In this document: one piece after another, positions 8,812 through 12,109 of the stretch | How positions within the stretch are numbered: the stretch's first letter is position 1 | Layout: every line of letters begins with the position of its first letter | Assembly (NCBI RefSeq): GCF_006517255.1 | Contig: NZ_CP041185.1 | Coordinates: 5,642,001 to 5,706,000 of the forward strand | Direction of reading: 5' to 3' | Length of the DNA: 64,000 nucleotides | Source: Janthinobacterium tructae | GTDB taxonomy: Bacteria; Pseudomonadota; Gammaproteobacteria; Burkholderiales; Burkholderiaceae_D | Translations under genes and position numbers: made by a program | Notes under the pieces: model-generated | Seen by the model: only the letters and a program-made list of their open reading frames with translations | Database searches by the model: none | Told to the model about the DNA's origin: nothing

Positions 8812-10173
8812 TTATTCCAGGGTGGCTTGCACGCTGGCGATGCCGATCTGCGCGCTGCCTTCGGCCAGGCGCACGTTGACGTTCTGGCGCGCCTGCAGCT
8901 GCGCCGGCGAGCGCACGATGGCGCCCTTTTCATCGCGCAAAATCGCGTAGCCGCGTTCCAGGGTGCGCTGCGGGTTGAGCAGTTCCAGCTGCGCCGCCAG
9001 GCCGTCGAGGCGGTGGCGCCGCTGCGTCACCAGCTGCGCCATGGCCGCGCCGCCGCGCCGCTGCATTTCCACCAGGCGGGCGCGCGGCGCCGTGACGTCG
9101 GGCCGCAAGGCGACCCAGCGCGAACGCAGGCGTTCGAGCGCGTACTGCGACTGGTTCACGGGCGCGCGCGCCGCATGCGTCATGGCCGTCGACAGGGCCA
9201 GCAGCTGCAGGCGCTGCTGCCGCAGCTGCGCCTTGGGGTTGAGCAGGCGGCGGCTGTGGCGGTCCAGCGTTTGCGCCGCGTCGTCGAGGCGGCGGCGCAT
9301 GGCGCGGCGCAGGTCGGCCGCATCGGCGCGCAGGGAGGCCAGCCAGTCGGCGCGCGGCGTGGCCGCCAGTTCCGCCGCCGCCGTCGGCGTGGCCGCGCGC
9401 AGGTCGGCCGCGAAGTCGGCGATGGTGAAATCGGTCTCGTGGCCCACGCCGCTGATCACGGGCATGGAACAGTCGGCGATCGCATGGGCCACGGCTTCAT
9501 CGTTGAACGACCATAAGTCTTCGATGCTGCCGCCGCCACGGCATACCAGCAGCACGTCGCACTCGGCGCGCTGCGAGGCGGTGCGGATGGCGTGCGCGAT
9601 TTTTTCCGGCGCCTGCTGGCCCTGCACGGGCGTCGGGTACAGAATGATGCCCACGTGCGGCGCGCGGCGCTTGAGCGCGATCAGGACGTCACGCAGGGCG
9701 GCCGCCTGCGGGCTGGTGACGATGCCGATGCTGCGCGCGAACATGGGGATGGCGCGCTTGCGTTCCTGGTCGAACAGGCCCTGCGTGGCCAGTTTTTCCT
9801 TCAGGCGCTGGAACGCTTCATACAGGGCGCCCACGCCGGCGCGGCGGATGGCTTCCACGTTGATCTGGTAATCGCCGCGTGCGCCGTACAGGGTGACGAG
9901 GGCGCGTACTTCCACCTTGTCGCCTTCGCGTGGCGTGAAGCCCGCGTACTGGGCGCGGCCACGGAACATCACGGCGCGCACCTGGGCGCCGTCATCCTTG
10001 AGGGTGAAGTACCAGTGGCCGGAGGCGGCGCGCGTGAAGTTGGAAATCTCGCCGGCGATCCAGGTCAGGGGAAACGAGCGTTCGAGCAGGCGCGCGACGG
10101 CCTGATTCAGGGCGCTGACGGTCAGCACGGGCGGGGCGGCAAAGCCGCTGTCAGTCGGAGAATCGTTCATCAT
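8812..10173 (-). CDS. xseA: Exodeoxyribonuclease VII large subunit
   Basis: The 453-residue subunit degrades single-stranded DNA together with XseB. It has the N-terminal OB fold ([45 protein letters not shown]) and the catalytic region with [21 protein letters not shown] and [27 protein letters not shown], then a long helical C-terminus. I start it at the ATG at 10173 (MMNDSPTD), which matches the usual N-terminus; a GTG at 10203 would add 10 unusual residues. Neither start has a good Shine-Dalgarno sequence. Its upstream side is the DnaA-box array. Confidence 0.93.
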
Positions 10174-10305
10174 CTGGCAAGGGGAAAGAAGCAAGCTGTC
10201 CACATATTATCGGCGAGGTCATGCTTATGTCATATATCGCGCAAAACAACAAGTTCTATTTCTAAGTATTTGATTTCATGCAGAATTCCTGTATGCCTGA
10301 TTTGC

Positions 10306-10394
10306 GTGCACAGGGAAAAAAACCTTTAATATCAAGCACATCAGTGCAGCCACTGCCACTTACGCACAAAGTTATCCACAGAAAGTGTGTGGAA
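10306..10394 (+). repeat. DnaA/IHF module 1
   Basis: KGCA block 10306, IHF-like core ATCAAG 10331, weak box TTACGCACA 10360, DnaA box TTATCCACA 10372-10380, inverted box TGTGTGGAA 10386-10394. The IHF match is partial (two mismatches in TTR). Confidence 0.7.
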
Positions 10395-10463
10395 CTTTTT
10401 GCCTTGGACAATTGTTGCCGGACAGGCTACTTTCGGCAAAGGAAAATGCCCTGCTACATTTTT

Positions 10464-10552
10464 GCGCATGGAGATAAAGTACATAGGAATCAAGCGCTTA
10501 GTATCGCATGCATGGCCTTGCGCACAATCTTATCCACAAAAAATGTGCAGAA
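10464..10552 (+). repeat. DnaA/IHF module 2
   Basis: GCGCA 10464, IHF consensus AATCAAGCGCTTA (ATCAAG at 10489) with no mismatch, weak box TTGCGCACA 10518, DnaA box TTATCCACA 10530-10538, inverted box TGTGCAGAA 10544-10552. Confidence 0.8.
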
Positions 10553-10612
10553 CTCTGGCGCAGTGCCGGAATGATCCACTGAAACGGCCATGGCATGGCT
10601 TGCCTGAATTTT

Positions 10613-10701
10613 GCGCAGCATAAAAATAACCATATAAATCAAGGGTGTAGCATCCAGGTGTGCGCTTTGCTCACAATCTTATCCACAGAATGTGTGCAAA
10701 A
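10613..10701 (+). repeat. DnaA/IHF module 3
   Basis: GCGCA 10613, ATCAAG 10638 (IHF consensus with one mismatch, preceded by CATATAA), weak box TTGCTCACA 10667, DnaA box TTATCCACA 10679-10687, inverted box TGTGCAAAA 10693-10701, which reads TTTTGCACA on the other strand and fits the relaxed DnaA consensus TTWTNCACA. Confidence 0.8.
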
Positions 10702-10772
10702 CTGCATAAACCGTTTCCTGGTTTGTCCGGGTTTTCCACGGCATGCACAGGCTGCGTCGCTGCCTTATTTTT

Positions 10773-10861
10773 GAGCATTGAAAAAAAATCCTTTTAAATC
10801 AAGGGTCTTGCATGGAGTCAATCGGCTTGCTCACAATCTTATCCACACTTTATGTGTGGAA
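10773..10861 (+). repeat. DnaA/IHF module 4
   Basis: GAGCA 10773, ATCAAG 10798 behind an A/T-rich run, weak box TTGCTCACA 10827, DnaA box TTATCCACA 10839-10847, inverted box TGTGTGGAA 10853-10861. Confidence 0.75.
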
Positions 10862-10942
10862 CTGTATTGGCGGTGGAAAAGTATTGTTTGACGATGGGTT
10901 TTGGCATGAAAACCTGCGCTTTCCACGCCCTGCTACATTTTT

Positions 10943-11031
10943 ATGCAGGGCAATAAAAACGATATAAATCAAGGTACTTGGCGTGTATTCTTGCGCTTGC
11001 GCACAATCTTGTCCACAGATTGTGTGCAGAA
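10943..11031 (+). repeat. DnaA/IHF module 5
   Basis: ATGCA 10943, ATCAAG 10968 preceded by GATATAA, weak box TTGCGCACA 10997, DnaA box variant TTGTCCACA 11009-11017, inverted box TGTGCAGAA 11023-11031. Confidence 0.75.
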
Positions 11032-11079
11032 CTTTGACGCTGGAAATGCCGCATGTTTCGCTCCGCTTGCCACTTTTTT

Positions 11080-11167
11080 GTGCATTTATATAATATCCTT
11101 TAAAATCAATGACTTAATTGAATTCCTCGGCTTTGCGCACAATCTTGTCCACAGTTAATGTGCAGAA
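11080..11167 (+). repeat. DnaA/IHF module 6 (1-bp shorter)
   Basis: GTGCA 11080, IHF consensus AATCAATGACTTA (ATCAAT at 11105) with no mismatch, weak box TTGCGCACA 11133, DnaA box variant TTGTCCACA 11145-11153, inverted box TGTGCAGAA 11159-11167. One base is missing between the IHF core and the weak box. Confidence 0.75.
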
Positions 11168-11228
11168 CTCTGTAACTATTGATTTATTGACATTGACTAC
11201 TGTCGATAAGCTGCTATGCCTGTATTTT

Positions 11229-11317
11229 GCGCAGAATGATATTTTCCATGTGAATCAAGTACTTGCATGCTGGACTTCATGCTTGCTCACAATCTTATCC
11301 ACACAAAGTGTGCAAAA
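11229..11317 (+). repeat. DnaA/IHF module 7
   Basis: GCGCA 11229, IHF consensus AATCAAGTACTTG (ATCAAG at 11254) with no mismatch, weak box TTGCTCACA 11283, DnaA box TTATCCACA 11295-11303, inverted box TGTGCAAAA 11309-11317. It ends 187 bases before the exbB start. Confidence 0.8.
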
Positions 11318-11503
11318 CTGTGCGCTGGCCGCGCCCGCCCGCCGCGCCGTGTGGACAAGTACGCATGCGGGCGCCACTTGCCGCCGGCGCGGCAACGCGC
11401 TACATTGCGCCATTCCCGCGCCGACATGCCATCGCTCTTCGGCGCTCGGTACAATACAGGCTGTCCGGGCGATTCACCGCCTTCCCTTTACCAGGAGTTT
11501 CTT

Positions 11504-12109
11504 TTGCTCGCTATATTTCAAGCCGCTGGCTGGCCCATCTGGCTGTTGTTGATCGCTTCCATCGTCGCCCTGGCCCTGATCATCGAGCGCCTGCTGTATT
11601 TGCGACGTGCCAAGATTCTGCCCCGCAAGCTGTTCGATGAAGTGGTGCAGGTATATCGCAGCGGCAAGATCACGCCGGATACGGTGGCCAAGCTGGAAGA
11701 CAATTCGCCGCTGGGCGTGGTGCTGGCCGCCGCCCTGCGCAATGTGGACGCGCCGCGCGAGGTGATGAAGGAATCGATCGAAGAAGCGGGCAGTGGCGTG
11801 GCCCACACGCTGGAACGTTTCCTGACGACCCTGGGCACCATCGCCACCCTGGCGCCGCTGATGGGCCTGTTCGGCACGGTGGTGGGCATGATCGAAATCT
11901 TCGGTTCGCAAAACGCCAGCGGCTCCAATCCGGCCCAGTTGGCCCATGGCATCTCGGTGGCCTTGTATAACACAGGCTTCGGCTTGGCCATCGCCATGCC
12001 GGCCCTGGTCTTCTACCGCCATTTCCGCGCCCTCGTCGACAGCTTCGTCATTGACATGGAGCAGCAAGCGGTCAAATTCGTCGATATCGTCCACAGTGGC
12101 CGCCAATGA
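11504..12109 (+). CDS. exbB: MotA/TolQ/ExbB proton-channel family protein
   Basis: This 201-residue inner-membrane protein has an N-terminal helix (AGWPIWLLLIASIVALALIIERLLYL) and two C-terminal helices, the second pair around TLGTIATLAPLMGLFGTVVGMIEIF and GISVALYNTGFGLAIAMPALVFY, as in ExbB/TolQ. It conducts protons with its ExbD partner to energise TonB. I chose the TTG at 11504 because AGGAG lies 6 bases before it; an open frame reaching back to 11267 would read through the DnaA-box array. It overlaps exbD by four bases. ExbB rather than TolQ is inferred from the lpxK neighbourhood. Confidence 0.85.
   Translation: MLAIFQAAGWPIWLLLIASIVALALIIERLLYLRRAKILPRKLFDEVVQVYRSGKITPDTVAKLEDNSPLGVVLAAALRNVDAPREVMKESIEEAGSGVAHTLERFLTTLGTIATLAPLMGLFGTVVGMIEIFGSQNASGSNPAQLAHGISVALYNTGFGLAIAMPALVFYRHFRALVDSFVIDMEQQAVKFVDIVHSGRQ

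Follow-up and report, generated by a model that had tools for sequence, protein, structure and literature searches.

What is a tandem array of strong DnaA boxes doing between a nuclease gene and a gene of the exbB/tolQ type? The stretch of DNA analysed here (the window, 64,000 nucleotides) covers positions 5642001-5706000 of the one-contig, 6,314,370-base genome of Janthinobacterium tructae. Between xseA on the minus strand and an exbB/tolQ-like gene on the plus strand it contains seven diverged direct repeats, or modules, each with one strong DnaA box:

8812..10203, minus strand: xseA, exodeoxyribonuclease VII large subunit (TIGR00237, 484 bits against a cut-off of 180)
10372, 10530, 10679, 10839, 11009, 11145 and 11295, plus strand: strong DnaA boxes of modules 1 to 7, five TTATCCACA and two TTGTCCACA
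11504..12109, plus strand: exbB/tolQ-like gene, the other flank (matches to TolQ/ExbB models fall below the curated cut-offs)

The XseA encoded in the window shares 98% identity with its counterpart in Janthinobacterium sp. SUN073. The motif TTRTCCACA occurs 8 times in the 64 kb, where 0.68 occurrences are expected (sd 0.92), and a count of 8 was reached in 0 of 100 shuffles. Successive boxes of the array are 136-170 bp apart, and blastn finds the array as a single locus in the 6.31 Mb genome. An eighth strong box, a lone TTGTCCACA at 11350-11358 on the minus strand, lies just past module 7 and has no boxes I and III. These positions confirm the seven boxes, and their division into five and two, that an original prediction from the sequence had placed between xseA and exbB. 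The prediction also gave a WATCAA word at a fixed 41 bases upstream of each box (40 in module 6); the fixed spacing holds, and our start-to-start values (41 bases in module 6, 42 in the other six) reflect a mere difference in counting. Its repeats are real, but the 89-bp length that it assigned to them is too short, as the conserved unit extends over an alignment of 115 columns, 41 of them invariant in all seven modules. Likewise, it described the strong boxes correctly but overlooked two weaker boxes in each module and an IHF site at 10263-10275, outside the region it had delimited.

On the minus strand, every strong box proves to be the middle one, box II, of three in the arrangement box I, 5 bp, box II, 3 bp, box III, with box I inverted. 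The core consensus consists of a TTYTGCACA-like box I, a box II of TGTGGAYAA and a TGTGNGCAA-like box III, and in all seven cores the direction from box I to box III aims at the start of xseA. Boxes I and II of the DnaA-reactivating sequences (DARS) are likewise described as opposite in orientation in the accessible text of PMC8682772. The cores are as follows:

10360..10394, minus strand: module 1 core, nearest xseA, TTCCACACA-5-TGTGGATAA-CTT-TGTGCGTAA; canonical DARS2-type unit
10518..10552, minus strand: module 2 core, TTCTGCACA-5-TGTGGATAA-GAT-TGTGCGCAA; 0 mismatches to the core pattern
10667..10701, minus strand: module 3 core, TTTTGCACA-5-TGTGGATAA-GAT-TGTGAGCAA
10827..10861, minus strand: module 4 core, TTCCACACA-5-TGTGGATAA-GAT-TGTGAGCAA; 1 mismatch
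10997..11031, minus strand: module 5 core, TTCTGCACA-5-TGTGGACAA-GAT-TGTGCGCAA
11133..11167, minus strand: module 6 core, TTCTGCACA-5-TGTGGACAA-GAT-TGTGCGCAA
11283..11317, minus strand: module 7 core, TTTTGCACA-5-TGTGGATAA-GAT-TGTGAGCAA

Across 111 strong boxes, taken from the window stretch and 39 further loci of the family (Oxalobacteraceae), likeness to a DnaA box is maximal for an inverted box at a gap of 5 (z 4.6) and for a box of the same orientation at a gap of 3 (z 4.4). DnaA of E. coli favours box pairs 2-3 bp apart, according to the part of PMC11317965 that was accessible, and the gap-3 pair alone is therefore not diagnostic. Box I, unlike that pair, is diagnostic of a DARS core. It scores 6, 7, 8, 6, 7, 7 and 8 of 8 in modules 1-7; among E. 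coli sites it scores 7/8 in DARS1 and 5/8 in DARS2, and in the non-DARS controls 2/8 at each of polA, purH and nrdA and 4/8 at datA. Nine-mers that score at least 6 as box I occupy 0.5% of window positions and 2.4% of those within 10200-11500. Boxes I and III of the array modules are imperfect; all seven modules nevertheless have boxes I and II opposed, with spacings of 5 and 3 bp.

IHF sites were matched to WATCARnnnnTTR, a consensus whose forms come from a figure legend of PMC4245941, itself seen in part, and from the original prediction. Each module has a site of this kind or an approximation to it:

10263..10275, minus strand: IHF consensus AATCAAATACTTA of module 1, exact, 105 bp from box II
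10488..10500, minus strand: compact IHF site of module 2, TAAGCGCTTGATT, reversed, +38 from box II, exact
10637..10649, minus strand: IHF-like site of module 3, +38, inexact 13-mer
10797..10809, minus strand: IHF-like site of module 4, +38, inexact 13-mer
10967..10979, minus strand: IHF-like site of module 5, +38, inexact 13-mer
11104..11116, minus strand: compact IHF site of module 6, TAAGTCATTGATT, +37, exact
11253..11265, minus strand: compact IHF site of module 7, CAAGTACTTGATT, +38, exact

Module 1 thus has an exact consensus at the DARS2 distance: in E. coli DARS2 the IHF consensus AATCAGAGAATTG lies at +105, with the same distance and strand sense. A site at that distance is absent from modules 2-7 (0/6 in the window), and for that reason we file them as DARS-core units and not as DARS2-type. 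Their compact sites match the 13-mer exactly in three of six cases (modules 2, 6 and 7) and with mismatches in modules 3, 4 and 5. DARS2, the array modules and the priA loci described below all have a TTGCNCAA-like word, located at roughly +66 to +70.

We conclude that the locus is probably a tandem array of seven DARS, made up of one canonical and six compact units. The central claim of the original prediction, that these tandem repeats form a replication-control locus working through DnaA and IHF, is well supported by the comparative sequence evidence. According to the accessible portions of PMC8682772 and PMC5742627, DARS bind ADP-DnaA head to head on boxes I and II, IHF and Fis promote the release of ADP, apo-DnaA takes up ATP anew, and it is important how far apart the core, IHF and Fis sites are. 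By analogy, module 1 would work by the E. coli mechanism: its boxes I and II would bind ADP-DnaA head to head, IHF, perhaps with a Fis homologue, would bend the DNA, ADP would depart, and the freed apo-DnaA would bind ATP and raise the level of ATP-DnaA ahead of the next initiation. The multiplication of units would give greater exchange capacity per chromosome, and a site in mid-arm would increase the dose at fork passage. The genome encodes IHF alpha (above cut-off), a Fis homologue (40% identity) and Hda (above cut-off), so that a rechargeable pool of ADP-DnaA would be expected.

The weakest step is the one from cores to function in modules 2-7, which we infer to be compact, self-contained exchange units whose number would set the dose. 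In the available text of PMC4245941, a DARS2 whose IHF site is shifted by 5 or 10 bp is only partly or moderately active, and the compact units may therefore not act like DARS2; they may differ in strength or timing, or may be titration sites. A more specific proposal, which we put forward tentatively and hold to be possible but doubtful, is that the six compact modules represent a new type of exchange unit of ~110 bp, in which IHF would act from the reversed +38 position, between the core and the TTGCNCAA-like element. Array length would then determine, stepwise, the amount of ADP-DnaA recharged each time a fork passes, and replication timing would be tuned by repeat number.

The position of the array was considered relative to the origin. 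GC skew, taken from 20 samples of 15 kb, has one switch of sign between 4.215 and 4.32 Mb and a second near 1.0-1.2 Mb. At 4260790-4261933 (L012:17790-18940) are three tandem units, each about 465 bp long, that combine DnaA boxes with repeats that we take to be DnaA-trio-like. This three-unit site at 4.261 Mb is the probable oriC, though dnaA is at 3.897 Mb, 365 kb away, and one such unit finds 3 to 6 matches in each of the 13 genus genomes searched. The possibility that the array itself is oriC is not supported by GC skew, as it lies at 5.65 Mb and the skew switch at 4.215-4.32 Mb. The distance between the array and the inferred oriC is 0.220 genome lengths here, 0.220-0.244 in 12 of the 13 genus genomes (0.131 in the remaining one, G011) and 0.209-0.277 in four genomes of other genera, where oriC was placed by similarity that is weak in two of them (G265 and G133). 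The same arithmetic, with an E. coli oriC coordinate that we assume, gives 0.206 for DARS2, 0.329 for DARS1 and 0.101 for datA. Given the inferred oriC, the array thus occupies a mid-arm position of the DARS2 type. Two more cores of the same genome, at 2173305 and 2174358 (L015), each have an IHF site at +105 and lie on the opposite arm, 0.331 genome lengths away from oriC and near the DARS1 value of 0.329.

We next consider how widely the array is shared. A profile built from the seven window modules (R1) finds matches in every same-genus relative but G021 (23 of 24) and, one or two apiece, in 5 of 16 genomes from other families. At E up to 0.001 it finds 284 of 294 genomes and 39 of 40 genera of the family set (own genome included), in some cases through one weak match; five of the ten genomes without a match are 1.9-2.6 Mb genomes of one genus. 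Small-genome genera have few matches, but R1 was built from Janthinobacterium and its genus bias is still in these counts; a link between module number and genome size was rejected on this ground. The number of module matches per genome is ~5 to 11 (E up to 0.01) and is similar for genomes with an array and for those with dispersed copies. The original prediction had called for a search of this kind and asked about conservation at xseA-exbB and occurrence at one place per chromosome; the module proved nearly family-wide, but its occurrence once per chromosome is true for part of the family only, because in some genera the copies are dispersed. Some genera have dispersed modules, or a single module at the xseA locus. 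Dispersed modules were seen in G154, G067, G053 and G061 (e.g. L118, L121, L129-L131, L134, L135, L144 and L145), and in several of them the strong box is at III and not at II, with the geometry unchanged by eye. The location between xseA and exbB is kept in 15 of 18 family genomes and 14 of 16 genera, the exceptions being the loci fetched from G055, G063 and G067. A mobile repeat, scattered over many unrelated places, is what the original prediction had named as counting against it. This explanation is not supported, given the one blastn locus in the own genome and the synteny in 15 of 18 family genomes; the dispersed single modules of some genera point the other way.

Within the family, the module nearest xseA differs from the rest. 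A larger sample consists of 80 named loci from 80 of the 178 relatives found, labelled Janthinobacterium, Duganella, Massilia, Rugamonas, Pseudoduganella, Telluria or unclassified Oxalobacteraceae/Burkholderiaceae, and may overlap the genomes of the R1 family set. Cores are present at xseA in 76 of these loci, with none in the other four under the chaining rule used; the mean is 5.7 cores over all 80, and 59 of the 80 have six or seven. An exact IHF site at 104-107 is found in 36 of 76 nearest modules (40 have none) versus 0 of 382 others, and a reversed +38 site (up to 1 mismatch) in 286 of the 382 other modules and 21 of the 76 nearest. In the set of 18 family loci, five of which have a single module, the +105 site (up to 1 mismatch) is present in 10/18 nearest modules versus 1/59 others, and the +38 site in 42/59 others and 13/18 nearest. 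The xseA-nearest modules of seven arrays from four genera (three of Janthinobacterium, window included, two of g25 and one each of g20 and g53) group together in a single clade (SH-like 0.951, UFboot 94). Arrays of extra modules with the reversed +38 site were seen in this family alone, in Janthinobacterium, Massilia, Duganella and their kin.

The core itself is far more widespread. Of 250 genomes searched in the order, nine of them Oxalobacteraceae, 206 have the core pattern at up to 2 mismatches, as do 105 of 121 genera; a reversed-pattern control is found in 0 of 250, and identical boxes spaced 6/4 in 2 of 250. In the class, 217 of 276 genomes have the core, with one match to the reversed control. 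Forty loci from 30 genomes outside the family were drawn from the matches listed and spread over families, their context being unseen at that point. Among these matches listed, 25 loci lie at xseA, 14 at priA and one (L176) at neither; the core aims at xseA in 25/25 and away from priA in 14/14. The exact forward IHF consensus stands 104-107 from box II in 23 of these 40 loci, and these 23 are all the forward IHF matches over 279 offsets, the other 17 having none. A reversed IHF site at 36-39 was found in 0 of the 40, and in three of them (L182, L184 and L185) two or more separate cores are found when up to 3 mismatches are allowed. From these two contexts and the IHF distance outside the family it follows that a DARS2-type element is common to the order at two loci, and the priA-hemE locus is the order-wide partner of the xseA locus. 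In the own genome the priA-hemE locus (L014, 4010189-4010620) lies 0.04 genome lengths from the inferred oriC and has one clear DARS2-type core (4010586) with IHF at +105, as well as a further box pair at 4010189. Outside the order, one core (L261) with a reversed IHF consensus at +38 lies upstream of an AddB-like repair gene and is possibly an independent compact unit.

Dense strong boxes could also simply titrate DnaA, the seven high-affinity clusters absorbing the protein after fork passage and delaying re-initiation, with no nucleotide exchange. Titration has been argued for E. coli (PMC12371093, in its accessible part), whose preference for pairs 2-3 bp apart (PMC11317965, likewise in part) fits the array, as does the similar number of module matches (~5 to 11) in array and dispersed-copy genomes. 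However, titration would work without an inverted box I set exactly 5 bp away and without an IHF site at a constant offset; the E. coli pairs at polA, purH and nrdA do without box I, and the 6/4 spacing is nearly absent from the order (2/250). We consider this reading unlikely. A datA-like site, at which array-bound IHF and DnaA would stimulate ATP hydrolysis and so inactivate DnaA, seems to us quite improbable. It would explain IHF sites near DnaA boxes, and modules 2-7, which lack the DARS2 IHF position, might have been repurposed; but such a site would combine IHF and DnaA boxes without a DARS core, whereas box I scores 6-8/8 in the array and 4/8 in E. coli datA, datA lies 0.10 from oriC versus 0.22 for the array, and module 1 retains the DARS2 IHF distance.

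The orientation of the cores bears on another explanation, DnaA-dependent control in cis of the transcription of xseA, with priA at the second locus. The core aims at xseA in 25/25 loci and is upstream of priA in 14/14 (outside-family loci among the matches listed), DARS2 is upstream of mutH and DARS1 of uvrB, and the binding of DnaA upstream of genes for replication and repair is known from E. coli (accessible text of PMC11317965). Against this, other genera of the family have modules away from both xseA and priA (e.g. L118, L119, L121 and L128-L131), and seven units over 1 kb apparently exceed the needs of a promoter. Nor did the class yield a repair-gene rule: a rule that DARS cores lie upstream of DNA-repair genes was rejected on 20 class-level loci, of which three are priA-adjacent and one aims at the AddB-like gene, the other flanks being rsmA, cysK, ampD, proS, rimO, ftsK, dsbC and similar (30 of the 39 flank proteins picked were scanned, and 12 of the 30 gave no family). 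We find control in cis very improbable as an explanation of the array, although it could be additional to a DARS role. Tandem promoters or small-RNA genes were set aside, as the conservation is concentrated in boxes I-III and in the IHF word.

The reading as an array of seven DARS builds on a known class of element. DARS-like sequences are reported from many proteobacteria (PMC10380432), and beta- or gamma-proteobacteria close to E. coli are said to share the DARS2 spacing (PMC5742627), so that DARS as such are not new in this group; PMC4245941 describes the DARS2 core as conserved specifically among E. coli-related gamma-proteobacteria (all three as far as their text was accessible). In the literature searched, which consists largely of papers outside subscription, we found neither a description of several DARS in a tandem array nor a mention of xseA-exbB or priA-hemE as a DARS locus, and the accessible text of PMC4245941, PMC4585315, PMC5742627, PMC8682772, PMC10380432, PMC11317965 and PMC12371093 contains no such array. 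The multiplied and compacted form therefore appears undescribed within these sources, as does the reversed +38 IHF site. If the reading is true, replication would be tunable by the number of DARS units. Work on DARS in this same literature centres on two E. coli loci; with typically six or seven cores in these arrays versus mostly one elsewhere, a natural dose series would be at hand for relating DnaA reactivation to initiation timing and for the role of position. The compact modules could probe which distance between IHF and core is truly required, and the syntenic pair of xseA-exbB and priA-hemE offers a candidate DARS map for the whole order.

Among the known systems close to the array is E. 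coli DARS2, between rppH and mutH, whose core in MG1655 we read as TTATCCCAG-5-TGTGGATAA-3-GGTGTAAGA; elements of the DARS2 type have Fis sites (FBS2-3) beyond the IHF site. The two share the order and spacing of boxes I, II and III, the IHF site at +105 (in module 1), the TTGCNCAA-like word at ~+66 to +70 and a distance of about 0.21-0.22 genome lengths from oriC. They differ in their cores (seven in the array, one main core plus a second triple in DARS2), in the flanking genes and in the reversed IHF site at +38 of modules 2-7. The second triple of DARS2 (L150:2140-2170), likewise spaced 5/3, is found about 320 bp away from the main core, and its box I scores 7/8. We infer that it corresponds to boxes IV-VI, which are dispensable according to the accessible part of PMC4245941. 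DARS2 may itself be a two-unit locus, and a multi-core DARS locus is thus not without precedent.

DARS1, between bioD and uvrB (core read in MG1655 as TTATCCACT-5-TGTGGATAA-3-TGTGTATTA), shares the core and a strong box II with the array, but it has one core, has no strict IHF consensus within 200 bp downstream of box II and lies 0.33 from oriC, unlike the array at 0.220. The datA site resembles the array in having DnaA boxes and an IHF site in non-coding DNA and a box pair 3 bp apart; its box I (4/8, compared with 6-8/8 in the modules) and its distance of 0.10 from oriC set it apart. The priA-hemE locus of the order has the same core as the array and, in the own genome and in other families, its IHF site at 104-107; the priA-hemE loci fetched show between one and three clear units each, and the +38 site of the array is absent from all of these units. 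The original prediction had called the layout unlike any described datA or DARS. For the order and spacing of the boxes and the IHF site of module 1, the layout is instead that of DARS2; what distinguishes the array is the multiplication of its units and the reversed IHF site at +38.
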